This document shows positions 1 through 28,238 of a stretch of 28,607 nt of DNA, piece after piece. The stretch is from a virus. The notes under the pieces are model-generated. The model did no database searches. It saw nothing but the letters and a program-made list of their open reading frames with translations, and was not told the DNA's origin. Location: the IMG/VR virus record IMGVR_UViG_3300024520_000380, positions 1 to 28,607 of that record. One strand, 5' to 3'. The stretch's first letter is position 1. The number at the start of each line of letters is the position of its first letter. A program made the translations under genes and the position numbers.

Positions 1-49
1 CGGAGACAGCGAAGAATATGAAATGACACTTAGGCGTGTAAAAAACTGA
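1..49 (+). CDS. 3' end of an upstream gene (partial)
   Basis: The frame beginning at base 2 is open to a TGA at 47-49 and would encode the C terminus GDSEEYEMTLRRVKN. The next gene starts directly behind it on the same strand, which fits an operon running into the window from the left. The tail is charged and soluble. It is too short to assign a family, and with only 15 codons it could be a chance open frame. Confidence 0.35.
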   Translation, partial: GDSEEYEMTLRRVKN

Positions 50-61
50 ATGGGGTTCATA

Positions 62-571
62 ATGTCACCACACACCAAACAACGCAGGCGGGCGATTAGG
101 AATTCGCCGTTCGTACACGAGAACAGCGAGCGGGACAATTGCGAGGCGCTGTTGGTAATCGTCTCGGTCGTGCTGACGGCCGCCATTATCGCCGTAATTG
201 GCTTCCTCTTTGTATCCTGCGCCCAGGCCGGCGAGGACAACTTCGGCCGCCACTACGATGCGGGGGCGTCATATTCGGCAGACGTTGAACAGATCGCGGG
301 GTTCAGGCTCTGGAGCATTCGGGCGGAAGACCCGGACAACTGGATCGAGTTGAAGGTCGGTAAGGATACCGGGACGGCGAACGTCGGGGTCATCATAGCC
401 GGGCAGCGCAATTTCTCTTATGTGGTCGGCCTCGGCGCACACGTAGATGACGGCGTTGGTGTGAACGCCCACCTTGGGGGCATGAAAACTGTTGGGAAAC
501 TGGCAATTCATGGCGGCTATGACACCAATCCGGGGTCTTTCACGTTCGGAATAGGGTGGTTGTTGTGGTGA
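62..571 (+). CDS. Small membrane-anchored or exported protein of unknown function
   Basis: About 169 residues when started at the ATG at 62. An in-frame ATG at 50 would add four residues, but the GGGG run before 62 is a better ribosome-binding candidate. A basic N terminus (KQRRR) of about 30 residues is followed by one strong hydrophobic segment (LLVIVSVVLTAAIIAVIGFL) and then VSCAQAGED. The AQA could be a signal-peptidase site; the FVSC is a poor lipobox. The remainder is glycine-rich, alternates polar and hydrophobic residues, and ends in an aromatic residue (FTFGIGWLLW), which recalls an outer-membrane beta barrel but is too short to claim one. The stop overlaps the next gene by 4 bases, so the two are probably co-transcribed. 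I do not recognise a family. Confidence 0.6.
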   Translation: MSPHTKQRRRAIRNSPFVHENSERDNCEALLVIVSVVLTAAIIAVIGFLFVSCAQAGEDNFGRHYDAGASYSADVEQIAGFRLWSIRAEDPDNWIELKVGKDTGTANVGVIIAGQRNFSYVVGLGAHVDDGVGVNAHLGGMKTVGKLAIHGGYDTNPGSFTFGIGWLLW

Positions 572-933
572 AACTGAAAATCGTTAGCGACGGCGGACCG
601 AAAAACACTAAAGTCATTGACGCCGAAACTGGCGAAAGCCTTGTCGGCGTGACTGCGATTGAATGGGAAATATCATACGGAAATCTTGCAGTTGCCACGG
701 TAACAATAGAACAAATAGAGGTTGATCTAACCGGGCGGGCAATAATTCCCGGTGTTTGGCACAAGACGATTGGTGATCGTCCCCGTGGGTCTTTTGAAAA
801 ACTTCTCGTCTACACCACGGATAAGGGAATTTTTGAAGCGTCATTTCACAACGGCACGTTTTTCACAAATCTCGGGAGTGACTTTCATCCGGATCTATGG
901 ATGATCATTCCAACGCCACCCACATACAAATAG
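568..933 (+). CDS. Conserved-looking phage accessory protein, unknown function
   Basis: About 121 residues from a GTG at 568 that overlaps the preceding TGA (GTGA). Earlier in-frame GTG codons at 556 and 565 also exist, but the 4-base overlap makes 568 most likely. The N terminus (MKLKIVSDGG, then KVIDAETGESLVGVTAIEW) has the look of a small beta-rich phage protein that recurs in many siphophages without an assigned role; this is recollection of a pattern, not a search result. No signal peptide or membrane segment. The gene ends at the hairpin that terminates the opposing late transcript, so it and its upstream neighbour form a short plus-strand unit converging on the structural operon. Confidence 0.65.
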   Translation: MKLKIVSDGGPKNTKVIDAETGESLVGVTAIEWEISYGNLAVATVTIEQIEVDLTGRAIIPGVWHKTIGDRPRGSFEKLLVYTTDKGIFEASFHNGTFFTNLGSDFHPDLWMIIPTPPTYK

Positions 934-978
934 GAAAAAGCCTCCCTGGTCCGCAGTTAGCGGAACGGCCAGGGAGGC
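931..978 (-). terminator. Intrinsic terminator of the minus-strand late operon
   Basis: A perfect 10-base stem pairs 940-949 with 969-978 and has an inner CCG/CGG pairing. On the minus strand the stem is followed directly by TTTTTCC, so it acts for transcription running right to left. It lies about 107 bases past the last minus-strand gene. On the plus strand there is no T-run after the stem, so termination of the opposing small genes is less certain. Confidence 0.85.
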
Positions 979-1084
979 CAATCGGGGATGCTCAATCAGG
1001 CAGTGACTTTTACCCCGTGCTGAGATGCGAATCCAGCCACCACAAGATAACACACTTTCAACTCACCGCAACCAACCCCGGAAC

Positions 1085-1600
1085 TCAGTATTTCACCGAG
1101 TAGAGCGGTACCCCGAGCACGGTGTCCCCGCTGGCCGTGTTGACCCGGAGTTGGGTTACGGCCGCCTTCAGGTGGTATCGACACGGGAACGCATCTCGGA
1201 ACCCGGTAGACGAGGCCGCCTGGATCGCCGTAACAGACATCGTATCAACAGAAACCGCAGCGATGCCCGTTGAGTCGCCGTTCACATACAAAGCCTTTAA
1301 GGTAAACGGTTCGTTGGCATACAGAAACCACCCGCTTGGCATGGCCTTGATGGTTGCCCAGTCCCCGTTCCGGCTGCTAGGATCAGCAATATCAAACAGT
1401 TTCGGAACCTGGATGATTCGCGGCCCGAACCACTTAGCCGCAGCCACGCCAGAGGCCTTGGTGAAAGATGAGTGAACAGTATCGAGTGCAGCGAAAGAGT
1501 AGATGCTGCCGATAGCATCGTACTCCGTTGGTGGCTGTTGTGCCATTGACCCAAGGGCAATCAGGCAAACAGCCATTGCGATAAAGAGAATTCGTTTCAT
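1085..1600 (-). CDS. Secreted protein of unknown function
   Basis: 171 residues with a clear Sec signal peptide (MKRILFIAMAVCLIALGSMA, cleavage expected near residue 20 before QQPP). The start ATG is preceded by GGAGG at good spacing. The mature part of about 150 residues is rich in Ser, Thr, Ala and Val and reads as beta-structured; I see no catalytic motif. It is the last gene of the minus-strand unit, followed by the terminator at 931-978, and it sits in a run of four genes that all begin with a signal peptide or hydrophobic segment. Virion proteins normally lack signal peptides, so export to the periplasm or cell surface is the simplest inference. A surface-attached or tail-fibre accessory role is an alternative. 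Confidence 0.75.
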   Translation of the reverse strand: MKRILFIAMAVCLIALGSMAQQPPTEYDAIGSIYSFAALDTVHSSFTKASGVAAAKWFGPRIIQVPKLFDIADPSSRNGDWATIKAMPSGWFLYANEPFTLKALYVNGDSTGIAAVSVDTMSVTAIQAASSTGFRDAFPCRYHLKAAVTQLRVNTASGDTVLGVPLYSVKY

Positions 1601-1654
1601 CGTAAACCTCCGTCAGTGTCAGTCATTTCGAACCTTTTGGCCGACCGGCCGCGA

Positions 1655-2029
1655 TTAGTCCCGTTTGATCGTGTTCGTTGCCCCACTGGACAGGACATGC
1701 CAGAGAAGGCCAACGGCGCCAGCAGCGGCGCCCAGGGTCGCGGTCGGCCCATCGCACAACTTCAATAAGATTTCACAGACCGGCTCCATCCACTCGGGCG
1801 GTAGCACCGTTGCCAGGACCGCCGGCGTGCCCATTGCGGCCACAGGGCTGAGTGTCTTGTGAACCGCGTAACCGGTCTTTTTCTCAACCCACTGTCCACC
1901 CTTTTTGACCGCCGCACCGCTGCCAACCGCAGATGCAACCAAGACGGCAGCACCAGGACCGCCGAAGTGGTTTGCAGCAATTGGGGCCGCCGTGGTCAGT
2001 GCTGTGGTCAGGATGCTTTTGAGTTTCAC
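1655..2029 (-). CDS. Small hydrophobic protein, possibly membrane associated
   Basis: 124 residues from a GTG that overlaps the TAG of the deacetylase gene by one base (TAGTG); GGGGG lies at a suitable distance upstream. The sequence is Ala/Gly/Val rich with two hydrophobic stretches, about residues 8-45 and 100-118 (LGAAAGAVGLLWHVLSSG), separated by a polar segment with a KKGGQWVEKKTG patch. This could be a two-segment membrane protein of the holin size class, but no holin family is recognisable and the gene is far from the endolysin. Translational coupling suggests a role together with the deacetylase protein. Confidence 0.65.
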   Translation of the reverse strand: MKLKSILTTALTTAAPIAANHFGGPGAAVLVASAVGSGAAVKKGGQWVEKKTGYAVHKTLSPVAAMGTPAVLATVLPPEWMEPVCEILLKLCDGPTATLGAAAGAVGLLWHVLSSGATNTIKRD

Positions 2030-4017
2030 TATTTTACCCCCGGAATAAATGCGTTGCCCATTCCATCGGGCAGAAACCAGACCCTATCTTCTGCAGTGAA
2101 CTTGAACGTGTCCACCTGCGAGTATGCGGCCGGCGTTGCGATTGCGGTTGCGGTTGCCTTGATGTGCCTGCCGTATTCACTAACCCGCATGTAGCGGCCT
2201 CCGAGTTCGTCCACCACCTCCAACATCCAAAGGTGCTCCTCAGAATCAACGCCCTCTGCATATGCCCCGGTCGGAGCAGTTTTGAAGTCATGCCAGAACA
2301 GAGACAACACCCCGCGACCATCTCCACGAATGTGGTTAATCGCCCGGCGCATGTTGTGCTTTACGTCCGCCTCTGTAATTGTCGTGTTTGCCAACTCTCC
2401 GACGATAGTATTGACGCCCATTGTGTACGGGAGCCCAAGCATGTTTCTTGGCTCGCGCTGGTTGGGCCACGCCCGACCAGCAAATAAAGAGTCGGTAGCC
2501 GCAGGCCGCTCGTTGGAAATAAACCGATAGCTGAAGTCCCCGGTGACGTTTCCACCTGCGGCCTGCCCGACCCTAACCTGTACATACCCCATGTCGGCAA
2601 CGGCCCTCAGAACGAACGGCGATAGCTCGTTATTTGGTAGCGCCATTGATTTAGCAAAGTATGGATCGCTACGCCGTTGATTGCCATCAAAGCTATCTGC
2701 GCGGGCATAGAACCACTCAGGAGTTGCGTCGAACTTGAGTGAGTCATACAAGGCGGAGGTTGTGTCCGCTGGTTGCCACTCTCTCAAGCCCTCGGTTTGC
2801 AGGTGGTATCTTGAATGAGGCCCAATCTCCATGCGGTCCCGATCCAGCCATGTCATCAAGGAGTCCATGTCGGTATATCCGGCGACGCCAAAGTGCCGCT
2901 CAGAGAAGAACACCGTCAGTGCCCCGCCGTGGCTTTTCATGTTCGACACATACTGGGTATTGGCCGCAAGCACCCCGTCGTCAGTAGACATGGCCATAAC
3001 CCATTCGGAGGTTCCGAAAGGCTTCTGATAGCGTTTTGTGATGTACTTAATCGTGATCCACGGAGATTTGTTGACGTTGGTTACAACCTCATCCCACCCG
3101 AACGTGCGCCATTGCTGGGTGGTTGTATTCTTCTCCCCGCCAACAAACAGGAACCCATTATTGACCGCGCCATTAACCGCCCCCTGTACGCAATTTCTCA
3201 ACGAGGCGTGATGAGCAACATCGGTTAGAAGGAACGGATCTGCTTCTGTTCCACCCGAGATGTCCCAATAGTCACCCCAATCCCAATAGTAATCCCTTGC
3301 CGCTAACTCAGGCACCCAAGGGTCAGAGTTTGACGCCGCCCAATCTGGGTCGCCACCCCTCGTTGACACTTGGCGCTGCCAAGATGCGTGTGCGTTGTTG
3401 GGCCACGAGGTAATGCCCTTTGACCCGTACCACTCACTGTCATTAGGGTTGGTCATCAGGACAGAATACAGTGAGTCGCCAAGCGTGAACCCGCTGGAGC
3501 CCCAGGCCACAGAATACCAATCAGCCGAGGCAATAGTGCTGTTTGCCGGTATATAGTCCTCAACGGGGATGTACACCAGCAACCCACTCAGCCCAGAATA
3601 CGCTCCGATGTTGATGTCGTGCGCCAGCGGGGAAGACCCAGAAATGCGGGGAGGCGGAACGATGTTGTGCCAGTTGTTCCCAGTGTCGTAGCCAATGGCC
3701 GTTGCTGAGTCAACAATACCATAGGCGAAGGTTGGGACATCCTGCCCCGTGCCTAATTCATAGACAAAATCAGCTGCCGCTACATCGGTGTTGTGCTGTG
3801 CTATGCTGTGGTCTGCCGTTGCGTCCATTGTGAACACGATAGTGAAGGTGTCATAACTCGCAGCAGCAGAACCGCCGGCGTAGCTTCCAACCTGCGAGTA
3901 ATACCCGCCCCGGTAACTGCCTGGCGCAACGTCATGACCCCCATCGCCGCCAAACATTAGGCCCATGGCCACCGCACCAATAGCAGCGAACGATCCTATC
4001 AGTTTTCGTTTGTCCAT
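2029..4017 (-). CDS. Polysaccharide deacetylase (CE4/NodB-like) protein with carbohydrate-binding-like region; possible spike or exported enzyme
   Basis: 662 residues. The N terminus has a hydrophobic segment (about residues 7-22) that looks like a signal peptide or anchor, then a Gly/Ser/Tyr linker. Residues about 55-320 are beta-rich and resemble DNRLRE/CBM96-type domains (for example YIPANSTIASADW followed by Trp-rich motifs). Residues about 335-610 carry the CE4 hallmarks: STDDG at 344-348 (motif 1, catalytic and metal Asp), HSRYH at 401-405 (motif 2, metal His pair), SPFVLRAVADMGYVQVR near 466 (motif 3-like) and SLFWHDF with H576 (motif 5-like). CE4 enzymes remove N- or O-acetyl groups from surface polysaccharide or peptidoglycan. 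The gene overlaps its upstream neighbour by 19 bases. It may be a tail spike acting on capsule or an enzyme exported from the infected cell; the signal-like N terminus favours the latter. Confidence 0.72.
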   Translation of the reverse strand: MDKRKLIGSFAAIGAVAMGLMFGGDGGHDVAPGSYRGGYYSQVGSYAGGSAAASYDTFTIVFTMDATADHSIAQHNTDVAAADFVYELGTGQDVPTFAYGIVDSATAIGYDTGNNWHNIVPPPRISGSSPLAHDINIGAYSGLSGLLVYIPVEDYIPANSTIASADWYSVAWGSSGFTLGDSLYSVLMTNPNDSEWYGSKGITSWPNNAHASWQRQVSTRGGDPDWAASNSDPWVPELAARDYYWDWGDYWDISGGTEADPFLLTDVAHHASLRNCVQGAVNGAVNNGFLFVGGEKNTTTQQWRTFGWDEVVTNVNKSPWITIKYITKRYQKPFGTSEWVMAMSTDDGVLAANTQYVSNMKSHGGALTVFFSERHFGVAGYTDMDSLMTWLDRDRMEIGPHSRYHLQTEGLREWQPADTTSALYDSLKFDATPEWFYARADSFDGNQRRSDPYFAKSMALPNNELSPFVLRAVADMGYVQVRVGQAAGGNVTGDFSYRFISNERPAATDSLFAGRAWPNQREPRNMLGLPYTMGVNTIVGELANTTITEADVKHNMRRAINHIRGDGRGVLSLFWHDFKTAPTGAYAEGVDSEEHLWMLEVVDELGGRYMRVSEYGRHIKATATAIATPAAYSQVDTFKFTAEDRVWFLPDGMGNAFIPGVK

Positions 4018-4382
4018 GTCAGAATCACCTCGGAGGCGGTCCCCAGAACGACCGTGACAGAATCAGCACTGGTGCCAACCGTGGAGAACGGGCGGGGAAT
4101 GTTTGCCCGGAGGCCAAAAGTCAGATCCCCGAAATCACCAGAGGGCCATTTGCGCTTCAGTCCGTTGGGGTCGGTACCGGCGCCCTCGGTAGAGTCAACA
4201 ATGACGATAGTCGCAGTGCCATCGGCCAGAACCTCAAGCATCACTGGCCCGAGCGCAGAAGTGCTGGCGAACCTAAACCCACTATCTCCCGTGATGACCT
4301 TTTCGCCCTCGGGCGTGGCAAATGAGTCAACAGCAGTAATCGCCACAGCGAGCAGCGACAGAATCAACAGAATGCGTTTCAT
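3999..4382 (-). CDS. Secreted small protein of unknown function
   Basis: About 127 residues from the ATG at 4382; an ATG three codons upstream also exists, but MKRILLILSLL is a typical signal-peptide start. The signal peptide ends near residue 22 (DSFA before TPEGEK). The mature part reads as a single beta sandwich (TATIVIVDST, SADSVTVVLGTASEVILTW) and has no catalytic motif. It is the first gene of the exported cassette and overlaps the start of the deacetylase gene by 19 bases, which suggests translational coupling. Because the plus-strand HNH gene lies immediately upstream, this cassette either has its own promoter in 4383-4465 or depends on read-through across the HNH gene. Confidence 0.75.
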   Translation of the reverse strand: MKRILLILSLLAVAITAVDSFATPEGEKVITGDSGFRFASTSALGPVMLEVLADGTATIVIVDSTEGAGTDPNGLKRKWPSGDFGDLTFGLRANIPRPFSTVGTSADSVTVVLGTASEVILTWTNEN

Positions 4383-4450: not shown

Positions 4451-4492
4451 CGTCAACGCTAGATTGACGGTCATGATCGATGGTGTTACCCT
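4451..4492 (+). promoter_or_regulatory. Candidate promoter and operator for the HNH gene
   Basis: TTGACG at 4464-4469 is followed after 17 bases by TACCCT at 4487-4492, with TG one base before it (extended -10 form). The -35 box is also the right arm of an inverted repeat: CGTCAA at 4451-4456 pairs with TTGACG at 4464-4469, so a dimeric regulator could cover it. A second small inverted repeat, CCAAAG and CTTTGG, lies just upstream at about 4422-4446. The -10 match is weak; this is a prediction from spacing and position. Confidence 0.4.
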
Positions 4493-4531
4493 ATCGGAAT
4501 GGACGCCGTTTTGCAACCGGCACAAAGTCCT

Positions 4532-4557
4532 GGGGCTCGTTTCTGATGACGAGCCCC
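4532..4557. repeat. Perfect 8-base inverted repeat in the leader of the HNH gene
   Basis: GGGGCTCG at 4532-4539 pairs with CGAGCCCC at 4550-4557 around a 10-base loop. It lies between the candidate promoter and the ribosome-binding site of the HNH gene. Neither strand has a T-run after it, so it is not a clear terminator. It could be an RNA leader structure or the edge of an inserted element. Confidence 0.6.
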
Positions 4558-4581
4558 ACCAAAACATCAGGAGCGCCGCCA

Positions 4582-5082
4582 ATGAAGCCAATGCCAGTCA
4601 ATCCCACATCATCACAGAAAAAAGAATATCGCATCTTTTGCTCTCAATTCGGGCTAAAGCCGTGCTGGGCCTGTCGCGAAGTAAAATCGCTAGAAGGATT
4701 TAATGCACGCGCGAACGCACAAGACCGCAAACAGGCGTCGTGCAGGTCATGCGACAATTCCAAAAAAAAAGAATGGTGTAAGTTAAACAGAGAACGCGAC
4801 ATGGCAAGCAAGCGGGATTGGACAAAGGCGCACCCGGAGCGCGTGGCCGCTGGGCAGCTCCGATACCGAACGGCCAACCCAGAAAAACGTCGAGCCAGGA
4901 GAGCCGTCAGCGGGGCGGTCCTCGCCGGTAAGATGGTCCGACCTGATCATTGCTCCGAATGTGGCGCCAAATGCATCCCCCACGGGCACCACTCTAACTA
5001 TGACAAGGACCATTGGCTAGATGTGGAATGGTTGTGCTCTGGTTGCCATGGTAAAAGACATAGAGGCCGTCCTGCTCTTTAG
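4582..5082 (+). CDS. HNH endonuclease with zinc-binding cysteines, probable free-standing mobile nuclease
   Basis: About 166 residues from the ATG at 4582, which has AGGAG 8 bases upstream; longer in-frame starts run through the leader hairpin and are unlikely. The N-terminal part holds a Cys4 zinc knuckle (CWACREVKSLEGF then CRSC). A basic linker follows (NPEKRRARRAVSGAVLAGK), then a C-terminal HNH-like module: CSECGAKCIPHGHHSNYDKD, then WLCSGCHGKRH. This arrangement is familiar from small phage HNH nucleases that behave as homing-type elements. It is the only large gene on the plus strand between 933 and 27700 and interrupts the minus-strand late unit between the lysis area and the exported cassette, with inverted repeats on both sides. 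Function is inferred from the motifs. Confidence 0.82.
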   Translation: MKPMPVNPTSSQKKEYRIFCSQFGLKPCWACREVKSLEGFNARANAQDRKQASCRSCDNSKKKEWCKLNRERDMASKRDWTKAHPERVAAGQLRYRTANPEKRRARRAVSGAVLAGKMVRPDHCSECGAKCIPHGHHSNYDKDHWLDVEWLCSGCHGKRHRGRPAL

Positions 5083-10284: not shown

Positions 10285-12579
10285 TTACACCTTGTGCCTT
10301 GAAGATCTGTTTTCAGCTTCATCTACCGAGTCGACGAGCAGGTTCTGTTCTTCGCGTCTGAATGGGCGTATGGCCTGCACTGTGAGGCTGTCGTTGCCAC
10401 GCCTGGCCCTGTTCCGTCTGGCCGGCGGGGGCTTTGTAGATGCGAATTTACGCGCCCTGTCGATTGCGTCCACCTGCGTGCGTGGGATCATCACCTCGCC
10501 ACCGTGACCCAGAACCAAAGACCTGTCAAGGCCGGGCGCCCCAGGGACAACCATGGCGGGCATGTCGAAGCCACCACCCCCGGGCATGGCCATGCCGAAC
10601 GCGGCGTTTGGGATCGTGCCGCCAAAGGCGTTGCTTGTTCCCGTCAGTCCACCAACAAGGGCCCCCAGGAACCCGCCACCGCCACCAAAGGCGGCCATCA
10701 GGGCCTTCGCCACCAGCAAGCGAGCGATGATCCGGGCAATGTCACCCAGGATGCCGGCGGCCATGCTCTTGAACGCACGCCCCAGCATGAGCGGCCCCTT
10801 GGTCAGCCCAAGCATGTGGGCGCCGATGTCAGTTGCCACCATGGCAAACGAATCGCCGATAGAGAAGGCCATTTGGGCGAAATCCTCGGACGTGAACTCT
10901 GCAAGGCTGGCCACCTGCTCTTTGAGGTCATCGAGCCTTTCTTTTTCATCTTGGGCGGCCTGGTCCGCAATCTTTTTCTTTTCTCTTTGCCTGCTCTCAA
11001 ATTCGTCTAGTTCTTTACCCGATGCCGGGCCGAACTCCTCATCCTCTGCACGAATTGGTTTTTCCCGCTCAAAACCTGTTTGAATCACGGTTTCAGCCGG
11101 GACCAGCGCCCTATTTGCCGCATCCATCAGGGCCTTGATCTCGGCTATCATTGCGGCAATGTCTTCTTTTGCGCTGGCCGCTGCGGCCCCTATGCGGTCG
11201 ATTACGTTTGGCGCATCACCAGTCCCCTCAATTTCCTGCCTTGCCTTGACCCACAGTTCCGCGAACTCCCGCAGAGACGCCAAGTCAGTAGTGTCCGGGG
11301 CGAACCGCCTTTTTTCCTTGAAGGATGCGATGAACTCGGCGTCCTGTTGCCATATCTTCATCTGCTCGGTTACTTTTTGGTCAAACGCTCGCTGGTCAAG
11401 GGCGGCGTCCATCTCTTTGAGGCGATCCCCAACAAAACCGAGGGCAACGGCCAAAGAGGACGCACCAGGGACCGCTTCAATCAACTGGTCAATATACGCC
11501 TTCCAGAGCGGCGCCCCGTTCTGTGTTTCGGTGGCAAGGAATCTGATCATCACGGCAGTATCGCGGACAACGCCGACGACCTTTGTGAACACTGGCAAAA
11601 CGGAAGTGCCGGCGGTGATTACCAGCGCATCAAGAGCGGCCCGCGCCTGTTTCGACTGAAGGTCAAACGTCTCGCTCATCTTCTCAAACGCTTCTTCGGT
11701 CACCCCAGCAGCGTTCGCCATGGCCGTCAGGTTCTCAGCCATCAGGTCTACATTACCGGCCACCTTTGCGGCCACACGGAGGGCCTCAACGCTCGGGATC
11801 AGCTTGCGGAGTTCGGCCAGGGATTCGCCGGAAGCGTTGCCAACATCGATGATCGATTGCATGAATCCTTTGCGGATATCAATGCCGGCCTCAAGCATCG
11901 CGTCTGAAGCCTCTTTTGTCGGGGCGGCTATCGCCAGGATCAGCGCATTGAGCCCGGTGATCGCCTCTGTTGTTTTCACCCCGGAAGCGGTGGCCGTGGC
12001 CATGGCCGCTCCCAACTCCTCCAGGGAAACATTGGCCGTCTTGGCCGTACCGAACAGCTTTCCAAACCCTTGCCCAAGCTGATCGATTGTCGTTTTTCCC
12101 TTGCGAACCGTCTGGAAAAGGACATCAACAACCCGGCCCGACTCTTCCGCCCCCAGTTCGAGGCCGCCGAGGGCATCTGTCACAAGGTCGGCGGCCGTAG
12201 CGATATCAGACACGCCAGCAACGGCCAGCTTGCCGGCGGCATTAAGGACCATCGCTGATTCTGCAGCATCGGTGAAACCAGCCGATATAATATCGTACCT
12301 GGCCTTGGTCATTTTCCCAACGGTTTGCCCGAAATCCACAGAAAGCTTGAGGAGTTCCTCGCGCATGTCCTCAATCGCGGGCGTAACATCCCCATCAAGC
12401 AGGGTCGAAATCTCGGCCATGCCCTTTTCAAACTGGCCAGCACGGACGGCGGCAACGGTCAGGGCGGCCGCTGAGACCGCCCCGAACCTTGCCATCATCT
12501 GTGTAGCTGATTTGAAAGCGGGAAGAGCGTTGTTCTTCCCGTTGATTACTACTTGGAGGACATTACTTGTAGCAGGCAC
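10285..12579 (-). CDS. Tail tape measure protein
   Basis: 764 residues from a GTG at 12579 with GGTGG upstream; the start overlaps the end of the chaperone extension by 31 bases. The N-terminal half fits the TP901-type tape measure core: long Ala-rich helices with LAVAGVSDIATAADLVTDAL, then TIDQLGQGFGKLF, then GVKTTEAITGLNALILAI. A polar, charged helical region follows, then a hydrophobic segment near 600-670 (ARIIARLLVAKALMAAFGGG) and a Gly/Pro/Met-rich C terminus with GHGGEVMIPRTQVDAI. Tape measures set tail length and are ejected ahead of DNA. Using the usual rule of about 0.15 nm per residue, the tail would be roughly 115 nm, which is an estimate. Neighbours (chaperones upstream, Dit-like downstream) confirm the call. 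Confidence 0.93.
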   Translation of the reverse strand: MPATSNVLQVVINGKNNALPAFKSATQMMARFGAVSAAALTVAAVRAGQFEKGMAEISTLLDGDVTPAIEDMREELLKLSVDFGQTVGKMTKARYDIISAGFTDAAESAMVLNAAGKLAVAGVSDIATAADLVTDALGGLELGAEESGRVVDVLFQTVRKGKTTIDQLGQGFGKLFGTAKTANVSLEELGAAMATATASGVKTTEAITGLNALILAIAAPTKEASDAMLEAGIDIRKGFMQSIIDVGNASGESLAELRKLIPSVEALRVAAKVAGNVDLMAENLTAMANAAGVTEEAFEKMSETFDLQSKQARAALDALVITAGTSVLPVFTKVVGVVRDTAVMIRFLATETQNGAPLWKAYIDQLIEAVPGASSLAVALGFVGDRLKEMDAALDQRAFDQKVTEQMKIWQQDAEFIASFKEKRRFAPDTTDLASLREFAELWVKARQEIEGTGDAPNVIDRIGAAAASAKEDIAAMIAEIKALMDAANRALVPAETVIQTGFEREKPIRAEDEEFGPASGKELDEFESRQREKKKIADQAAQDEKERLDDLKEQVASLAEFTSEDFAQMAFSIGDSFAMVATDIGAHMLGLTKGPLMLGRAFKSMAAGILGDIARIIARLLVAKALMAAFGGGGGFLGALVGGLTGTSNAFGGTIPNAAFGMAMPGGGGFDMPAMVVPGAPGLDRSLVLGHGGEVMIPRTQVDAIDRARKFASTKPPPARRNRARRGNDSLTVQAIRPFRREEQNLLVDSVDEAENRSSRHKV

Positions 12580-12866
12580 TGCAATACCACCATTTGCATT
12601 TGTTCGATAGTCTTGCCGCCCCCGAGGGCCTCCTGCATGATACCCAGCGCCGCCGTCATGTCTTTGCCCGTGAATCTACGGGCTGAGGCATAGTCAATGG
12701 CGACATCTGTCAGGCTGTGAACGCTCCGGAGATATTGGCTTGGGCTACCGACCGAGTAACGGTGGCAAATCAGGTCAATCGCTTCCGCGTTCCCCGTTAG
12801 CAGGAAATCGACCAGCAGCCTCAGCGTCTTTCTTGGGGTTCGACAGTTCGATGATTTCCCCGCCAA
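12549..12866 (-). CDS. Tail assembly chaperone, frameshifted C-terminal part (T-like)
   Basis: This frame is open from 12872 to the stop at 12549 and lacks a good start: the only early candidate is a TTG at 12866 without a convincing ribosome-binding site. It overlaps the preceding chaperone gene by about 90 bases and lies between it and the tape measure, which is the classic position of the T extension of a G/GT pair. The product downstream of the overlap (RKTLRLLVDFLLTGNAEAID then YLRSVHSLTDVAIDY) is helical. Relative to the upstream gene the frame is +1 (or -2), not the common -1. If the shift occurs at CCC-A (12834-12837), the fusion would be about 226 residues. It could also be an independent gene started by re-initiation. 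Confidence 0.75.
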   Translation of the reverse strand: MAGKSSNCRTPRKTLRLLVDFLLTGNAEAIDLICHRYSVGSPSQYLRSVHSLTDVAIDYASARRFTGKDMTAALGIMQEALGGGKTIEQMQMVVLQCLLQVMSSK

Positions 12867-13230
12867 TGAAATTCAAATCCTTTATCGTCAGCCTGGCCAT
12901 GAACTCTTCGGGAGGCGTCGGTTCAACGAGAGATTTCAAAACCAGCGACCTGATCATTTTGAGCTGGTCGGCGAGGCTGAATGCCTCCCACTGCTCGGAC
13001 GCCATTTTGCTGATTTCCTTCTCGCTGTCCTCGGACGTCGCAATGGCCCGGTTCACTTCATCCATCGGGAAATCGTACAGAGAGAGCAGGTCCTCTGGCG
13101 CGATCTTGGAGATCTTCGCCCTTACGGGCTCTCCAATCTCGGCGGACAAATCAGGCAGAGTCACGATCTTTGTGGTTGGCGACTTGGTGTTGATCTCGCC
13201 CATGCTCAGAATTTTTTCATCATTACTCAT
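12775..13230 (-). CDS. Tail assembly chaperone (G-like)
   Basis: About 151 residues from the ATG at 13230 (MSNDEKILSMG). An upstream in-frame TTG at 13260 would overlap the tail tube gene and is less likely. The protein is acidic and mixed, with IVTLPDLSAEIGEPV near the N terminus and a helical middle (PMDEVNRAIATSEDSEKEIS). It lies between the tail tube and the tape measure and overlaps a second frame at its 3' end, which identifies it as the first tail assembly chaperone. By analogy with lambda gpG/gpGT, the short product and a frameshift fusion would coat the tape measure during tail assembly. Sequence similarity within this class is low, so position is the main evidence. Confidence 0.78.
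   Translation of the reverse strand: MSNDEKILSMGEINTKSPTTKIVTLPDLSAEIGEPVRAKISKIAPEDLLSLYDFPMDEVNRAIATSEDSEKEISKMASEQWEAFSLADQLKMIRSLVLKSLVEPTPPEEFMARLTIKDLNFIGGEIIELSNPKKDAEAAGRFPANGERGSD
12834..12840 (-). other. Candidate +1 ribosomal frameshift site between tail chaperones
   Basis: On the minus strand the upstream chaperone frame reads AAC CCC AAG AAA; one-base forward slippage of the proline codon gives CCA followed by AGA, which enters the T-like frame. CCC followed by A is a known kind of +1-prone proline codon. A second candidate is GGG-G at 12858-12861 (GGC GGG GAA), where slippage by one base re-pairs perfectly with GGG. Only the frame relation and the motifs are seen; the choice of site is inference. 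Confidence 0.45.
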
Positions 13231-13249
13231 GGCTTGTCCGGCCTTTCTG

Positions 13250-14224
13250 TTAGGTGACAATCGTGCCAGTGGCGTTGATCATCGTGAGGGCCAATCCCTC
13301 GGTTATCATCCCGTCAATCGTGAGTTGATTGATTCCAGGATCTTGCGCAGACGGGAACGCGGCCGTGATAAAGGCCTTATTCCCGGCTATGGAGTGATCG
13401 TATTTCGTGGCGCCGACGATGATGTCACCCTGATGTTGCAGGGCCAAGCCGACGATCTCGTTACCGGCGATGTAGTCCTGAACGAAGGCCTCGGTGTCCT
13501 CGCTGGTGGCATCGTTGTGCTCGCAAACCAGTGAGAAGCTTGCCACGGGGCGTCCTTCGATAACCGCTTCTTTGAACAGGGCCTCGCCATAATGCTCGCG
13601 GGCGCCATCGCGGGGGACCTCAAACTCAATCGTGCCGGAAAGCACCGTGAAGGTGTTTCCGCCGAGTTGCAGAAGCACCTTATGGGCGGGTAGCACGGGT
13701 TTGAATACGGGGAAGCTCGCCACAGTCGCGGCGCCGAAAGAAGTCCCGGTCCCCAGCATGTCGAAAGTCGTTCTCAGGATCTGGCGGTTGGCAAACTCAA
13801 TCGTTGCCTTAGTGACGTGCATACCCAGGAAAGTCTGCTCGCTGGTTCCACCGATCCCGCGCACGGCCTCAATCGAGATGCCTACCGGGAACGAATTTGT
13901 GGAAGGGACGAACGTAAAGGCATGCTGGTGGGCACCCGCTACCGGCGTGTCGACGCCGAATACGTAGGTGCCGAACAGGCTGTGCCAATACAACTCATGT
14001 CCAGTGTAGATCGAGGAAAAGACAACCGAACCCTCATTGCGGCCGGCCGAATAATAGACATCATCATGCCAGCCATCGGTCAGACACTCAGACATGAACG
14101 GATCTTTGACGTGCCTAAGGGTCTCGGAGATCATGCAGGAAAACAGATCTATCGTTCCCTTGACGCCAAACGTGACTTCGCCGCCGTAGCCGATATGGCT
14201 ATTGATTCCTTTTCCCAAACTCAT
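13250..14224 (-). CDS. Major tail tube protein
   Basis: 324 residues. The ATG overlaps the preceding TGA (ATGA). The opening MSLGKGINSHIGYGGEVTFG and the alternating beta pattern through the protein (GSVVFSSIYTGHELYWHSLF, ATIEFANRQILRTTFDMLG, GTIEFEVPRDGA) match the long tail tube proteins of siphophages, in which each subunit contributes beta strands to the hollow tube. The length is at the upper end for a simple tube subunit and suggests two tube-like halves or an added surface domain: residues 1-170 and 190-320 both show the same strand-rich layout. The gene precedes the chaperones and tape measure, the standard order. No contractile sheath gene accompanies it, so the tail should be non-contractile. 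Confidence 0.87.
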   Translation of the reverse strand: MSLGKGINSHIGYGGEVTFGVKGTIDLFSCMISETLRHVKDPFMSECLTDGWHDDVYYSAGRNEGSVVFSSIYTGHELYWHSLFGTYVFGVDTPVAGAHQHAFTFVPSTNSFPVGISIEAVRGIGGTSEQTFLGMHVTKATIEFANRQILRTTFDMLGTGTSFGAATVASFPVFKPVLPAHKVLLQLGGNTFTVLSGTIEFEVPRDGAREHYGEALFKEAVIEGRPVASFSLVCEHNDATSEDTEAFVQDYIAGNEIVGLALQHQGDIIVGATKYDHSIAGNKAFITAAFPSAQDPGINQLTIDGMITEGLALTMINATGTIVT

Positions 14225-14568
14225 TTCGCACCTCCGGCAGGCTTTGCGGCCTTTTCAGGCTTGGTGTGGTCTTTCTCGCCATTAGCGAGGTAGGCCGCTG
14301 TTTCGTCCGGGCGGTTTTCGTTGAAGTCCTCGAGGGCCTTTGCGCTCTTCTTGGCCCGCTCTTCGTGCCTTTTCTTGACTGCGGCAACGCGGTCATCGAT
14401 GGCCTTCTGGTATTCCTTTAGGCCCTCGGTGATTTCCCAGCAGCCGCCCAAGGGGTAACCATCGGGAACGCGCAACTTGACCTCTTCGCCGAGTTTGGCG
14501 GTCTTGCCCGCGAAACCGGGAACGGTCACTTCGGGAAAAGGCCCCAGGTATTTGGCTTTCACGATCAT
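14221..14568 (-). CDS. Small charged protein between tail terminator and tail tube, unknown function
   Basis: 115 residues, joined by ATGA overlaps to genes on both sides. The N-terminal half is a small beta domain (MIVKAKYLGPFPEVTVPGF, then EVKLRVPDGYPLGG). The C-terminal half is a highly charged helix, probably coiled coil (AIDDRVAAVKKRHEERAKKS), ending in a Lys/Pro/Ala-rich tail. A small basic protein in this slot is common in siphophage tail modules without an agreed function. The basic tail could contact DNA or the acidic tube lumen, which is speculation. Confidence 0.7.
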   Translation of the reverse strand: MIVKAKYLGPFPEVTVPGFAGKTAKLGEEVKLRVPDGYPLGGCWEITEGLKEYQKAIDDRVAAVKKRHEERAKKSAKALEDFNENRPDETAAYLANGEKDHTKPEKAAKPAGGAK

Positions 14569-15068
14569 GGGTTTACCCCTCTGTTAATCGCCACCACAAG
14601 GCGAAACTCAGCTACTAAGTACCCCTTGTTTATAGTGGAAAACGATTCCATGTCAAACACTATTGGGGCTGGGTTGGCAAAAAGTACCGTCCCCTGCCCT
14701 GCGCCGTCCGGCATTGTTTCATTGCCATAGATTGCCGAGTGAATATCTGCCATCAGTGCGGTGCCCGCCCGGTAGAGGGCCTCGCGCCCTTGGGATGTCT
14801 TGACGTAACCCCAGACGAAAACAGGCCAGTCAAAGTAGATCTTGCCTGTATCTCCATCGCCACCAAAGAATTGCTGGGCAGGCTCAAGATCACCGAGTTC
14901 AACCCGAATGGATGGGAATTCGCCGTCCGGGATGCCGTCCACCACATCGGCACCCATCGAAACCTTGGGCGTGGTGTTGAACCCGTCTGCCCTGGTGATG
15001 GTCTTCAGGGTCCGCATGATGCCGTCAATCGCCCGCTGTAGGCTGTAATCGTCCACATTAGTTGACAT
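14565..15068 (-). CDS. Tail terminator-like protein
   Basis: 167 residues, size and position of tail terminator/completion proteins (lambda gpU, HK97 gp10-adjacent class). An N-terminal helix (QRAIDGIMRTLKTI) is followed by beta strands (PSIRVELGDLEPAQQFFGG, KIYFDWPVFVWGY), a helix with GREALYRAGTALMADIHSAI and final strands (EFRLVVAINR). These proteins form the ring that stops tail tube growth and joins the tail to the head. The start overlaps the preceding gene by 11 bases. The fold is inferred from the strand and helix order. Confidence 0.72.
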   Translation of the reverse strand: MSTNVDDYSLQRAIDGIMRTLKTITRADGFNTTPKVSMGADVVDGIPDGEFPSIRVELGDLEPAQQFFGGDGDTGKIYFDWPVFVWGYVKTSQGREALYRAGTALMADIHSAIYGNETMPDGAGQGTVLFANPAPIVFDMESFSTINKGYLVAEFRLVVAINRGVNP

Positions 15069-15600
15069 TTGGAGCCACCCCCCTGCGGTTGGCCGCCGGC
15101 AAGACGCGCCCGGTTTTCAGGGTTCCCTTGATTGATGCCATGACATGGGCCCTGATCAGTTTCCTGACCCTCGGCGACCTCTCGCGCAAGGCGCGGCTCA
15201 TGTACGGGCGGCGCGGGATCTTGACCTCCCGGACGGACACGAATCCGCCGTCCTGCCCTTTGAACATCAAAAACCCGCCAGCCTTTTTCGGCCGGATGGT
15301 GCCGCCGAATTCGTGGATCGGGGCGTATTTGACATGGGTCCCGACGATGCCTACCACCGTGCCGCCCCGGTCAAACACCTCACCCTGGATCGACCGCCAC
15401 AGATCTCCGGACCTTCGCGTGAGCACCTTGCCGTCTACCAGGTCCTTCGCCCGGGCCTGGACGTCGATCACAGATGCCCAGATGCCCGCCCTGAGCCCCC
15501 GCGCAAAGGCCTTCGGCATCATCGTGCGCCAGACCCTGAGTTTTGCGTCAAGGTCCACCACACCAATGCTTAGGGCTCCTGATTTGCGGGGATCAGCCAT
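15058..15600 (-). CDS. Neck protein, HK97 gp10-type head-tail joining component
   Basis: About 180 residues from the ATG at 15600 that overlaps the upstream TGA by one base (TGATG); a longer start inside the upstream gene is unlikely. The key signature is VKYAPIHEFGGTIRPKKAGG, the conserved YA-x-x-HEFGG core of HK97 gp10/minor capsid joining proteins. It is preceded by a helix (MPKAFARGLRAGIWASVIDV) and RSGDLWRSI, and followed by RPYMSRALRE and a C-terminal helix, all typical for the family. The protein helps couple the connector of the filled head to the tail. Confidence 0.87.
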   Translation of the reverse strand: MADPRKSGALSIGVVDLDAKLRVWRTMMPKAFARGLRAGIWASVIDVQARAKDLVDGKVLTRRSGDLWRSIQGEVFDRGGTVVGIVGTHVKYAPIHEFGGTIRPKKAGGFLMFKGQDGGFVSVREVKIPRRPYMSRALRERSPRVRKLIRAHVMASIKGTLKTGRVLPAANRRGVAPNVN

Positions 15601-16223
15601 CAGACAAACCATGTCCTTTTGTGGCGCTTCAGTTCCTTGACCGTGACTTCATCGAAATCTGTAGCCGAGTAGGTGATGGACGTTTCGCCCTTCGACTCGG
15701 CGCTGATGCCGTGTTTCTGGTCCTTCCAGCGTTTCCACTTGGCGGCGATGGCATCCAGGGCGATCATCTTCAGGTTTTCCAGCCGGTGGTCCCCCGCGGC
15801 AAAGCCCGCCTCATATATCACCTCGGCGGCCTGCTCGACATCGGAGAAATTGCGGGTTTTCAGGGTTATTAGGCCCATCTCGCGGTCGTACCACATGTCA
15901 TCGTTCGAAAGGTCGGTGCCCGGACCGGTCAGGACGGTCGGGGTTGTGTCGTGCGGTAGCAGGGTGACAGACACCAAGTCTTGAACTGGAGCATTGCACA
16001 GATACAGCTTGGCCTCGCCATAGCCCCGGTAATATTCGGTGAGTTGCTCGCCTGCAGTGTGCAACATGTGATCCCGGCCCATCAATGCCAGCATCAGGCC
16101 GGTTACCCCGTTGATGTGCATTTTCAGCAGATCCCCGCCGTCTGCCGGGAAGCCCTGGTCCTGGAGGTATTTCTTCGCCTGGCTGACTGTGACTGGCGCC
16201 TGTCCATGTAGGGTGATCGCCAT
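15600..16223 (-). CDS. Head-tail connector protein (HK97 gp6/adaptor type)
   Basis: 207 residues. The helical layout with VTVSQAKKYLQDQ at the N terminus and LKMIALDAIAAKWKRWKDQK near the C terminus is typical of adaptor proteins of the HK97 gp6/SPP1 gp15 class, which form a ring under the portal after packaging. A central beta insertion (AKLYLCNAPVQDLVSVTLLP and WYDREMGLITLKTRNFS) is also usual for this class. It stands between the capsid region and the gp10-like neck protein, which agrees with the standard gene order. Confidence 0.8.
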   Translation of the reverse strand: MAITLHGQAPVTVSQAKKYLQDQGFPADGGDLLKMHINGVTGLMLALMGRDHMLHTAGEQLTEYYRGYGEAKLYLCNAPVQDLVSVTLLPHDTTPTVLTGPGTDLSNDDMWYDREMGLITLKTRNFSDVEQAAEVIYEAGFAAGDHRLENLKMIALDAIAAKWKRWKDQKHGISAESKGETSITYSATDFDEVTVKELKRHKRTWFV

Positions 16224-16224
16224 G

Positions 16225-16584
16225 CTACACCTTCGCCCGTTTGGTGACCCTGAGGATGAACGGTTTGGTTACCAGGTTGCCACCGTTGAAACCCTGAATC
16301 TCGAATTCGCAGATCAAATCCCTTGGGCCGTTGGTCACAACTGCGGTCGCGGCGCTCATCTGGACCTGCACCTTTCCATCTGAACCGTCCGTGAAAAACG
16401 CTGATGCGATTGCGCTTACAACAGCAACGCCGTCCTCGTCTGTGGCGTAGAACAGCTTGTCACCAGACGCCGAGGACAGATCATCAGCCACACCATCAGA
16501 GGTGATCGTATGCCGCAGGATAGCCGCTGTCGAGTCCTCTGGGATCTCGAATACAGGCATTGACTGGAAATATTCCTGGCTCAA
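16225..16584 (-). CDS. Immunoglobulin-like/BppU-N-like beta domain protein
   Basis: 119 residues. The start is a TTG at 16584, supported by GGAGG seven bases upstream and a TTGA overlap with the previous stop; a later ATG at 16560 has no good ribosome-binding site. The sequence reads as a single beta sandwich: FEIPEDSTAAILRHTITSDG, then LSSASGDKLFYATDEDG, then GSDGKVQVQMSAATAV and RDLICEFEIQG. This order (polarisation start, dGsdGkvqvq strand, final EFEIQ strand) resembles the N-terminal domain of baseplate upper proteins and many phage Ig-like domains. Its place among head-neck genes suggests a capsid or neck decoration rather than a baseplate role. Confidence 0.62.
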   Translation of the reverse strand: MSQEYFQSMPVFEIPEDSTAAILRHTITSDGVADDLSSASGDKLFYATDEDGVAVVSAIASAFFTDGSDGKVQVQMSAATAVVTNGPRDLICEFEIQGFNGGNLVTKPFILRVTKRAKV

Positions 16585-16844
16585 TTCACTGCCTCCACGC
16601 GCCCGCCTGCAACCGCAGCGCCGTCGATAGAACCGCCGACCACTTGGCCACTGATCGCTTGAAGGGACCGGCCGCCGATGACAGATCCTCCGTCAAGAGT
16701 ACCGCCGACAACCTGACCTGAGATCGCTTGCTCGCCCCTGGTGCTCAGGGGGTACGGAGCCGTGATGCTTCCACCATATACCAAATCCTCGGCAGCGACC
16801 CCATCGGCCAGCAGAAGATTGAGCATGTGGAGGGGAAGAAGCAC
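16581..16844 (-). CDS. Small Gly/Val-rich repeat protein
   Basis: 87 residues from a GTG that overlaps the upstream TAG (TAGTG) with AAAGG in place. A hydrophobic N-terminal stretch (MLLPLHMLNLLLADG) precedes two tandem 23-residue repeats (residues 40-62 and 63-85), each beginning AISGQVVGG. The regular small/hydrophobic alternation suggests a short beta-solenoid or beta-strand stack. It is co-translated with the large beta protein upstream and the Ig-like protein downstream, so a surface decoration or neck-spike role is possible. No known family recognised. Confidence 0.68.
   Translation of the reverse strand: MLLPLHMLNLLLADGVAAEDLVYGGSITAPYPLSTRGEQAISGQVVGGTLDGGSVIGGRSLQAISGQVVGGSIDGAAVAGGRVEAVN
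16590..16727 (-). repeat. Two tandem 69-base coding repeats
   Basis: Two in-frame 69-base units at 16659-16727 and 16590-16658 encode AISGQVVGGTLDGGSVIGG and AISGQVVGGSIDGAAVAGG. The DNA copies share blocks such as ACCGCCGAC (16632-16640 and 16701-16709) but differ at many third positions, so the duplication is old and the protein pattern has been kept. Confidence 0.85.
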
Positions 16845-17761
16845 TAGTTGTCCTTTATCAGCCCACCGAACGAGCCGATGGCTTTGGTGTTGTTTACGGT
16901 GGCTGTAGCCCTGATAAGCATGTCTGTTTTTTCGGGGATTGCATCCAGCGTTGTAAACGTGTGGCTAAATGAGGTTGTGCCATCGGTGGCCATGCCTGCA
17001 TTTAGTTGCTCGCGGAACGCCATTCCGAAAGGCCTAACTCTCAATTCCATCTCGCCGTAGCCCTTGCTTTGGGCGTTGTAGATTGATGCAAATATTGCGG
17101 TCATGAAGAATGTCTTCCCGGCCGGCACTGTCCAGAGCGCCATTTGGGATTGGTTGTTCCCGATTGACACCTGAGCCCTGACTGTGCCGCCCGCGAGGTC
17201 TTGTATCTTCAGGTCGCCAGTGTTCACCCCGTCGATCTCATTCAGGCCAGCAGTCAAGACTTCAATACGGAATATCCTAAGATAGCTATTCACGGTGAAC
17301 ACCGGGCTCACCCCGTCAAGGGTCATCTGTTCGCTGACCTCTGCATAATTCTCGTCGAGGCCATAAATCATGATGGTGTGGGCGCCAATATCACCAGGTG
17401 TGTCATTGGCCGACGTGCTCACCAGTTCAAGCTGTGCGGCAGCGGTCATCCATGGATAAAGCCCACCGCCATCCCATACGTCTTCGATCTGCCCGTTGTT
17501 GATCTGAGTGTTCTGTCCGAACTTCCGCAACTTACTCCAGCCAGGAACGTTGCCAAGGGCGAGTTCGGCATAGAACATGGCCGCCGGCATGCTGGGAAAC
17601 GGGGTTTCGATGCTGGGGTCGGTGAATTCGCCATCTACGCCGAACCCCCCCTTGACCCGTTGGACCCTCGCCCCGTCAGCAACCCCACCATCATTGATCT
17701 CGTCGTCAGCGTACAGGCTGCCGGTGGTCGTGTTCGTGTTCAGCCGTGTGTTGTCAGCCAT
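16844..17761 (-). CDS. Large beta-rich head or neck accessory protein
   Basis: About 305 residues from the ATG at 17761 with AAAGG seven bases upstream; a GTG five codons earlier is the alternative. The N terminus is polar and flexible (MADNTRLNTNTTTGSLYADD). A middle part contains WDGGGLYPWMTAAAQLELVS and IMIYGLDENYAEVSEQMTL, and the rest is strand-rich (VRAQVSIGNNQSQMALWTVP, GEMELRVRPFGMAF). There is no enzymatic motif. Its place between the capsid gene region and the connector, together with the next two small beta proteins, suggests head decoration or head-fibre proteins. Similar proteins recur in environmental siphophages as unknown structural proteins, as far as I recall. Confidence 0.65.
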   Translation of the reverse strand: MADNTRLNTNTTTGSLYADDEINDGGVADGARVQRVKGGFGVDGEFTDPSIETPFPSMPAAMFYAELALGNVPGWSKLRKFGQNTQINNGQIEDVWDGGGLYPWMTAAAQLELVSTSANDTPGDIGAHTIMIYGLDENYAEVSEQMTLDGVSPVFTVNSYLRIFRIEVLTAGLNEIDGVNTGDLKIQDLAGGTVRAQVSIGNNQSQMALWTVPAGKTFFMTAIFASIYNAQSKGYGEMELRVRPFGMAFREQLNAGMATDGTTSFSHTFTTLDAIPEKTDMLIRATATVNNTKAIGSFGGLIKDN

Positions 17762-27068: not shown

Positions 27069-27315
27069 CGCCTCCGATCTCAGGGTTGCACCTGCAGTTG
27101 ATCGTCTGGAGCCGCTCGGGTGGGTCTGGCCACTGGCCGGATGGCATTATGCGGCCTTCAGCCACGAACGAGAATTCATAATCAATCATCCCGAATTCGT
27201 CGGTGTACCAGAGTTTGAATATCTTGCCCTTCCACCGCTCAAGCCTCATGGGATCAGTGGGGGGCTGGCGCCGAACCAGATACGAAAGCCACAGAGCCCT
27301 AATAAATTCTCTCAT
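27055..27315 (-). CDS. Small protein ending in an INCRC motif, unknown function
   Basis: 86 residues, joined to the lipoprotein gene by ATGA. The middle is beta-like (GKIFKLWYTDEFGMIDYEFS). The C terminus reads RLQTINCRCNPEIGGDDCA; the string TINCRC is also the closing motif of the MuF-type domain fused to the portal in this window. No MuF domain is otherwise present, so it may be coincidence or a small metal-binding end. It is followed by the membrane protein gene with a 14-base overlap. Confidence 0.65.
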   Translation of the reverse strand: MREFIRALWLSYLVRRQPPTDPMRLERWKGKIFKLWYTDEFGMIDYEFSFVAEGRIMPSGQWPDPPERLQTINCRCNPEIGGDDCA

Positions 27316-27692
27316 TGGACATCATTCCCTTCCTCAAAAAACTTGTCCCAAGGGGTAGGCACCCCATCGGCGTTAAAGCCTCGAACCCTGCTTATCGAGT
27401 TCGTTTTGCCCGACATCAAGATGTAAGCCGATGGGACTGAAACATCTGCCCTGGTTTCAATCTGGTAGTGATGAGCGTCGGCGTGACCAGCCCAGCCCAA
27501 ATGGACGAACATGTCAGCGTTGACCAGAATCAGAAGTGCAGACAGTACAGAGGGCTGGTCTGCCGGCGGCACCGATTTAACCACCGCCATAAGATCCGCC
27601 GGCAACACGTCAGACTCGATCTCGATGGGTGGGCACGTCGCGCAGCCGGTAAGGATGCAGAGCGCCATGATCGCTATAATTCCCTTTTTCAC
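27312..27692 (-). CDS. Predicted lipoprotein, unknown function
   Basis: 126 residues from a GTG at 27692 that has AGGAGG nine bases upstream. The N terminus MKKGIIAIMALCILTGCATC has a good lipobox (LTGC, lipid-attached Cys17). The mature part is mostly polar with one helix (ADQPSVLSALLILVNADMFV). Phage lipoproteins of this size serve as spanin outer subunits or as superinfection-exclusion proteins that block the phage receptor, for example the T5 Llp type; the family here is unknown. It is the first gene of the minus-strand run from 27692 to 25395. Confidence 0.75.
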   Translation of the reverse strand: MKKGIIAIMALCILTGCATCPPIEIESDVLPADLMAVVKSVPPADQPSVLSALLILVNADMFVHLGWAGHADAHHYQIETRADVSVPSAYILMSGKTNSISRVRGFNADGVPTPWDKFFEEGNDVQ

Positions 27693-27956: not shown

Positions 27957-28238
27957 TCAACCAGCGCCACCACCTCCACCGCCGCCGCCTTCACCGCCAA
28001 TGGGGTCGCCATCCCACGGCCATTCCGGATCGTTTACCCATTCTTTACATCTGTTGTACCAATTCCAAACCCTGAAAATGTAGTGGTTCACTTCTACAAC
28101 CAGGGGATCGTCGGGGCCGGCGGTGTAAGCTACCGGGTTATCGTCAGAGTCCCTCAGTATAAGAACAGCGGTGTCCTCGTCGGCTTGTGCCACCCCCGCG
28201 ATCAAACACAGGATGGCTAAGAGTATCATCAGTCTCAT
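27957..28238 (-). CDS. Small secreted protein with Gly-rich tail
   Basis: 93 residues, with GGAAGG before the ATG. A Sec signal peptide is clear (MRLMILLAILCLIAGVAQA, cleavage before DEDTA at about 19-20). The mature part has a short beta domain (TAVLILRDSDDNPVAYTAGP), an aromatic patch (YIFRVWNWYNRCKEWV) and a low-complexity C terminus of nine or so glycines. It begins 2 bases after the stop of the coiled-coil gene upstream. Function unknown; a periplasmic or surface role follows from the signal peptide. Confidence 0.72.
   Translation of the reverse strand: MRLMILLAILCLIAGVAQADEDTAVLILRDSDDNPVAYTAGPDDPLVVEVNHYIFRVWNWYNRCKEWVNDPEWPWDGDPIGGEGGGGGGGGAG

Follow-up and report, generated by a model that had tools for sequence, protein, structure and literature searches.

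A predicted exported CE4 deacetylase with small exported-type partner proteins near the lysis genes of two otherwise dissimilar siphoviruses

The predicted exported-protein cassette

The window examined here is the complete virus record IMGVR_UViG_3300024520_000380 (28,607 bases), and the element in question is a cassette of four minus-strand genes at positions 1085-4382. Its largest gene encodes a protein of 662 amino acids (aa) that is predicted to be an exported polysaccharide deacetylase of family CE4, and a 2011-aa homolog of this protein is encoded by a second, siphovirus-like contig. The cassette consists of the following features:

3999-4382, minus strand: small protein of 127 aa with a signal peptide and no known family; ATG at 4382
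2029-4017, minus strand: predicted exported-type CE4 deacetylase of 662 aa; ATG at 4017
1655-2029, minus strand: protein of 124 aa with a GTG start and two weakly hydrophobic Ala/Gly-rich segments
1085-1600, minus strand: small protein of 171 aa with a signal peptide
940-1000 (approximate limits), minus strand: intrinsic-terminator-like hairpin closing the cassette, from sequence and folding

All four open reading frames lie where the original prediction placed them, with the overlaps it described: the first two genes (4382-3999 and 4017-2029) share 19 bp and the next pair 1 bp at 2029, while 54 bp lie between the third gene and the start of the fourth. The first gene could alternatively start at an in-frame ATG at 4391, giving 130 aa. 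The 124-aa protein matched no family in profile searches, apart from one insignificant result, and it is at most holin-like. The cassette had also been described as the end of a late operon, a view that agrees with the direction of its genes and with the strong terminator hairpin (GCCTCCCTGG...CCAGGGAGGCTTTTT) 3' of the last gene, but less well with the HNH-type gene that separates it from the lysis genes. Since this intervening gene lies on the opposite strand and a weak promoter-like site is found upstream of the cassette (4440-4413), the four genes may be transcribed separately from the lysis genes. Their codon usage and GC content at third codon positions are those of the adjoining tail and lysis genes.

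Predicted export signals

Signal peptides were called by a simple rule on n-, h- and c-regions. Signal peptides or hydrophobic starts had been claimed for all four proteins; the rule supports three of them (4382-3999, 4017-2029 and 1600-1085), while the 124-aa protein, with weak hydrophobic segments, received no call. The predicted signal peptide of the 127-aa protein is MKRILLILSLLAVAITA, followed by VDSF (a later cleavage site is possible), that of the 171-aa protein is MKRILFIAMAVCLIALGSMA, followed by QQPP, and the 662-aa protein has the signal-peptide-like N terminus MDKRKLIGSFAAIGAVA (residues about 1-17). Applied to internal pseudo-starts and to shuffled proteins, the same rule was positive in 0.9% and 1.4% of cases, respectively; among 150 annotated proteins from three other tailed viruses it called four (2.7%). 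At the last of these rates, three calls among four proteins would arise by chance with a probability of ~7e-5, a figure uncorrected for the region having been chosen for its signal peptides.

Starting the 662-aa reading frame at its in-frame ATG at codon 18 would delete the signal peptide. However, the ATG at 4017 has the better ribosome-binding site, a good Shine-Dalgarno sequence (GAGGTG) with an 8-nt spacer, so that translation probably yields the form with the signal peptide.

A predicted divergent CE4 deacetylase

Beyond its signal-peptide-like start, the 662-aa protein comprises a beta-rich-looking region (about 50-320) and a CE4 domain (about 325-640). The motifs named in the original prediction, STDDG (344-348) and HSRYH (401-405), are present and correspond to CE4 motif 1, [TS]xDDG, with its catalytic-base and metal-binding aspartates (QTDDG in the homolog) and to the metal ligands of motif 2, H[ST]xxH (HSRAH in the homolog). 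The C-terminal LxH motif, which holds the catalytic acid of CE4 enzymes, is also found (SLFWHDF, versus SLYTHDF in the homolog), and its histidine is in register with the terminal histidine of other CE4 proteins. Thus, the active-site residues D346, D347, H401, H405 and H576 are all kept in the 2011-aa homolog. Motif 3 (RxP[FY]) is the least regular; its proline aligns (P461, an invariant column), but the arginine is off its usual place (SMALPNN), and this motif also varies among the viral CE4 proteins of the same alignment.

Comparisons of profiles and structures point in the same direction. The Pfam CE4 profile (PF01522) is placed at the correct motifs of the 662-aa protein, although its score of 13.8 bits (E 0.059) is below the curated cutoff of 23.1. 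The homolog scored better (E 0.0023 for the whole protein; E 6e-4 and 20.2 bits for its N-terminal 800 residues), likewise below this cutoff. When the two homologs were aligned by MAFFT, without forcing, to six viral-contig CE4 proteins, the DDG, the IGxHSxxH and the motif 3 proline fell into invariant columns, and hhalign of the CE4 region of the two homologs against these viral proteins gave P = 6e-4 (0.78 for an N-terminal control region), with a low probability score (12%), as expected from such thin profiles. An AlphaFold2 model of residues 316-658 reached a pTM of 0.68 and a core pLDDT of roughly 75-93, with several loops poorly modelled. Foldseek returned 26 PDB matches to it at E < 0.001, every one a CE4 deacetylase or esterase whose substrate is a chitin oligomer, xylan or peptidoglycan, and VIA-align to the same group gave Z of about 12-15. 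Because the input alignment of the model contained the six CE4 proteins, the model supports the CE4 fold rather than proving it; the evidence from motifs and profiles stands independent of it. The 662-aa protein is therefore predicted, in line with the earlier assignment and its expected fold, to be a divergent CE4 (NodB-fold) deacetylase.

A single-sequence AlphaFold2 run on the entire 662-aa protein gave no usable fold (pLDDT 29), and a search of the PDB with the two-member profile returned insignificant matches only. The CBM96 domain (PF24517) suggested earlier for the N-terminal region was not matched anywhere in the window, even at E <= 1, and the region has neither a structural model nor a family assignment.

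A homologous gene in a second phage

A search of viral contigs with the pattern DDG...[IVM]GxHSxxH found one true relative, on IMGVR_UViG_3300005683_000468 (38,533 bases, 65% GC, siphovirus-like):

11370-17405 of IMGVR_UViG_3300005683_000468, minus strand: 2011-aa homolog of the 662-aa protein

The alignment spans residues 30-661 of the 662-aa protein at 30.5% identity (E 1e-64), and the homolog carries, in order, a signal peptide, the same N-terminal region, the CE4 domain, Fn3-like parts (fibronectin match, E 0.006) and modules without a family match. The two signal sequences align poorly, though both proteins have one, and an accidental hydrophobic start is unlikely because the export signal persists at about 30% identity. 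Directly before the homolog lies a gene for a 137-aa signal-peptide protein, the mature part of which is homologous to the 171-aa protein of the window (alignment z 5.4; 0/500 shuffles). Downstream of the homolog come two genes, the first for a transmembrane protein of 94 aa and the second for a protein of 153 aa judged by eye to resemble an N-acetylmuramoyl-L-alanine amidase, so that CE4 genes lie near endolysin genes in both phages.

Little else is shared. The portal, terminase and tape measure of the relative fall in PHROG groups other than those of the window, and outside the cassette there is only a weak head-tail-adaptor match. It follows from the homolog, its partner and their neighbours that an exported-type CE4 protein, a homologous exported-type partner and lysis genes co-occur in two phages that otherwise have little in common. 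The survey of related phages proposed earlier thus recovered the CE4 gene and one homologous partner in a single relative; a scan with a terminase alignment returned 80 distant relatives, none of which contains the cassette.

The 127-aa protein was also compared with the small proteins of both phages; a test for homology rejected kinship with the window's 171-aa protein and with the 137-aa protein of the relative, and none to the others was detectable. Residues about 810-1240 of the 2011-aa homolog resemble, by eye, a TIM-barrel glycoside hydrolase adjoining the CE4 domain, recalling PgaB or PelA. No Pfam family matched this middle region, PF14885 (GHL15) included, and a second glycosidase domain there is an impression only.

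Genomic context

By gene content, the minus strand of the window is a siphovirus late region. The genes recognized, with the lysis neighbourhood and the gene that parts it from the cassette, are:

24872-23289, minus strand: terminase
23288-20970, minus strand: portal
20973-20050, minus strand: protease
20099-18402, minus strand: capsid-like protein (PF05065 slightly below its cutoff)
16223-15600, minus strand: head-tail adaptor
14224-13250, minus strand: tail tube
12579-10285, minus strand: tape measure
10282-8609, minus strand: tail-region protein (LamG match over cutoff)
8127-6181, minus strand: second tail-region protein (weak LamG match)
6168-5956, minus strand: 70-aa transmembrane protein, lysis neighbourhood
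5956-5450, minus strand: GH108 endolysin (PF05838, E 5.5e-21; phrog_315 endolysin, E 3.5e-42)
5460-5155, minus strand: 101-aa protein, lysis neighbourhood
4480-5082, plus strand: HNH-type endonuclease gene between the lysis genes and the cassette (HNH-like motif; weak tblastn match, E 0.008, beside an annotated HNH nuclease)

Because the portal and terminase found matches of only about 20-30% identity among 50,697 phage records, the phage is deeply divergent. No integrase or repressor was recognized among the window genes scanned.

Further envelope-type genes are present elsewhere in the window. Upstream of the terminase are two small exported-type genes (27957-28238 and 27312-27692, both minus strand), one encoding a signal-peptide protein (MRLMILLAILCLIAGVAQA) and one having a lipoprotein-type start (MKKGIIAIMALCILTGC). 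Past the terminator, on the opposite strand, a gene at 50-571 (plus strand) encodes a product that has a segment of transmembrane or signal type and is, in its C-terminal part, weakly similar to an outer-membrane beta-barrel (PF13505, E 0.17), which might be an additional envelope protein.

Related proteins and searches for further members

The top structural match of the CE4 model is gp31 of HFTV1 (PDB 8qpg chain TA; Z 15.1, rmsd 2.9, 201 aligned residues), at 8% sequence identity. In HFTV1, a haloarchaeal siphovirus, the head turrets display a carbohydrate-binding-like domain followed by CE4, an arrangement proposed to bind and weaken the host surface glycan (PMC12494034). The likeness to the window phage extends to the siphovirus-shaped tailed virus and to the order of a beta-type domain followed by CE4. 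In contrast, gp31 is a virion protein encoded in the head-tail region of a virus with an archaeal host, and it begins with MTGLNPDGLGRTAAF, which has no hydrophobic segment; the signal peptides called by rule in the 662-aa protein and its homolog distinguish them from the turret protein. Bacterial CE4 deacetylases (Vibrio chitin and chito-oligosaccharide deacetylases, PdaC, SpPgdA, acetylxylan esterases) share the CE4 fold and the DD..HxxH metal site, and many are exported; these are bacterial genes, with 10-15% identity to the 662-aa protein and other accessory regions. A functional parallel is gp41 of the Acinetobacter phage Aristophanes, a phage enzyme that deacetylates surface polysaccharide, as predicted for the 662-aa protein, but has an SGNH/GDSL fold and is a structural tailspike. 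Since cells treated with gp41 became uninfectable, a deacetylase is able to remove a phage receptor (PMC8471582).

Judging from the rule-based calls, the window is not the only phage sequence to encode a signal-peptide deacetylase. Two large-phage contigs found in the pattern scan that gave the relative, L119 (IMGVR_UViG_3300025113_000005) and L114 (IMGVR_UViG_3300035698_017008), encode 250-aa CE4 proteins with clear signal peptides that are mutually 38% identical, at loci with phage genes (endolysin in L119; DNA ligase and Hsp20 in L114). They are members of a different CE4 branch: unlike the 662-aa protein, they are compact, have the usual TFDDG motif and lack the large N-terminal region; their neighbours (phrog_38499 in L119, a GtrB-like glycosyltransferase) differ from those of the window, and a relation beyond CE4 is undetectable. 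At L119 7036-14011 and L114 8747-10853, the CE4 gene comes right after a similar short gene and one for a Pro-rich membrane protein. In appearance the product of the short gene, which is phrog_38499 in L119, is an L,D-transpeptidase; a GH16-like-looking protein is nearby, and L119 also encodes four more signal-peptide proteins in addition to the endolysin and the glycosyltransferase. These loci look like a separate exported envelope cassette. Another contig, L107 (IMGVR_UViG_3300038620_000086, 1-1812, minus strand), encodes a lysozyme-like-looking region followed by a typical CE4 domain (TFDDG...HSYSH), possibly a combined cell-wall enzyme. Recurring cytoplasmic-type CE4-like proteins of about 160-185 aa (LTFDDGLY...EIGGHSYYH, no signal peptide) were seen in four further viral contigs (L010, L012, L015, L016).

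Searches for a third member of the family were negative. Viral contigs contained no match to automatic patterns derived from three proteins (662-aa, 648-aa and portal), and GTDB contigs none to those of the 662-aa protein; tblastn of this protein against phages and plasmids gave insignificant matches only, and an alignment scan with both family members found no other. A first CE4 pattern scan produced two matches, both by chance, a second recovered other viral CE4 proteins unrelated to the 662-aa protein, and six matches of the family pattern in GTDB contigs were all due to chance. A profile search of 958 genomes from three phyla (392 + 168 + 398) was empty, a result of little weight, as the host may lie outside these phyla. 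In the titles and abstract openings of the open-access literature searched, no phage lysis region was described as encoding a CE4 protein with a signal peptide.

Proposed function and alternatives

The 662-aa protein is probably an exported, non-virion CE4 enzyme (probability roughly 0.6). The original prediction suggested that the set is built for the cell envelope, and action at the envelope or beyond is favored by the recurrence of signal peptides in the distant homolog and its partner. In the proposed sequence of events, the cassette would be transcribed late, with or shortly after the lysis module, as its position suggests. The deacetylase and two small proteins would then be exported from the cytoplasm via Sec on their predicted signal peptides, a step supported by the recurrence of the signal in the homolog and its partner. 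The CE4 domain, through its predicted D-D-H-H metal site, would strip acetyl groups off a glycan. At or before lysis, the enzyme would thereby alter host surface or extracellular polysaccharide, and progeny could leave matrix and debris and avoid re-adsorbing to dead or infected cells. This last step is tentative, with the odds somewhat against it in exactly this form; action around lysis is suggested by the lysis-gene neighbourhood, while the data are compatible with several benefits (release of progeny from matrix or debris, editing of peptidoglycan, exclusion of competitors), and the CE4 fold does not discriminate among them.

Several observations weigh against an exported, non-virion enzyme. 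The family has two members only, the hydrophobic core is weaker in the 662-aa protein than in the other two signal peptides called by the simple rule, and virion-borne CE4 domains are already known (PMC12494034). The relative's CE4 gene lies between the tail and lysis genes, the usual place of a receptor-binding protein, and the 2011-aa homolog is long, modular and fibre-like. Some of these points bear on an alternative that makes the 662-aa protein a structural part of the virion (spike, fibre or turret): a receptor-binding protein with a glycan-binding region, whose CE4 domain deacetylates surface polysaccharide at adsorption and whose hydrophobic start either anchors it in the virion or is accidental. 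The HFTV1 turret, with the same succession of binding-type domain and CE4 on a virion, favors this alternative, as do Foldseek matches to other tailed-phage CE4 or tail proteins and the Fn3- and LamG-like modules of the relative's gene. Against it, tailed virions are put together in the cytoplasm, and a component sent out of the cell could not be built in. Signal peptides are present in both homologs though their N termini are unalignable, the co-encoded small proteins are likewise signal-peptide proteins, and HFTV1 gp31 has none. A spike with a misleading hydrophobic N terminus, the alternative named in the original prediction, is thus weakened by the recurring signal peptides and is judged unlikely, though by no means negligible.

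An exported enzyme could also serve an exclusion (moron) module that modifies the polysaccharide or peptidoglycan of the living infected or lysogenic cell, blocking the adsorption or lysozymes of competitors; this differs from action around lysis in timing and benefit and involves the same exported enzyme. The opposite-strand gene between cassette and lysis genes, the promoter-like site and the cassette's own terminator are consistent with such a module, as are the peptidoglycan CE4 enzymes among the structural matches and the Aristophanes experiments, in which acetyl-group loss blocked infection (PMC8471582). Against it are a placement typical of late genes, with lysis and tail genes as neighbours in either phage, a codon usage equal to that of late genes, and the fact that no integrase or repressor was recognized among the genes scanned, which together make it improbable. 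A catalytically dead CE4-like protein that binds glycan without deacetylating it is less credible still: the motif 3 arginine does not occupy its customary RxP position (the sequence reads SMALPxN) and some CE4 proteins are pseudoenzymes (one of them, BA3943, is among the structural matches), but both motif 1 aspartates, both motif 2 histidines and the last-motif histidine are kept in homologs at 30% identity.

Significance

CE4 proteins in phages and deacetylases on virions are already known. What appears new, relative to the titles and abstract openings searched, is a signal-peptide CE4 protein encoded close to lysis genes, along with an exported-type partner, by two siphoviruses that are unrelated in other respects. 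A more speculative and doubtful extension of the exported-enzyme reading is a transferable release-enzyme module common to tailed phages, in which a Sec-exported deacetylase and its dedicated exported partner would be swapped between unrelated phages, beside lysis genes, and would edit extracellular glycan for escape without re-adsorption, making it a counterpart, among bacterial viruses, of receptor-destroying enzymes. As a rule, the glycan-modifying enzymes of phages are regarded as virion parts used for entry; a conserved exported version near lysis genes would point instead to use at exit or on infected cells. The family also adds a divergent branch of CE4 (two members, 30% identity), which may be a source of new polysaccharide deacetylases.

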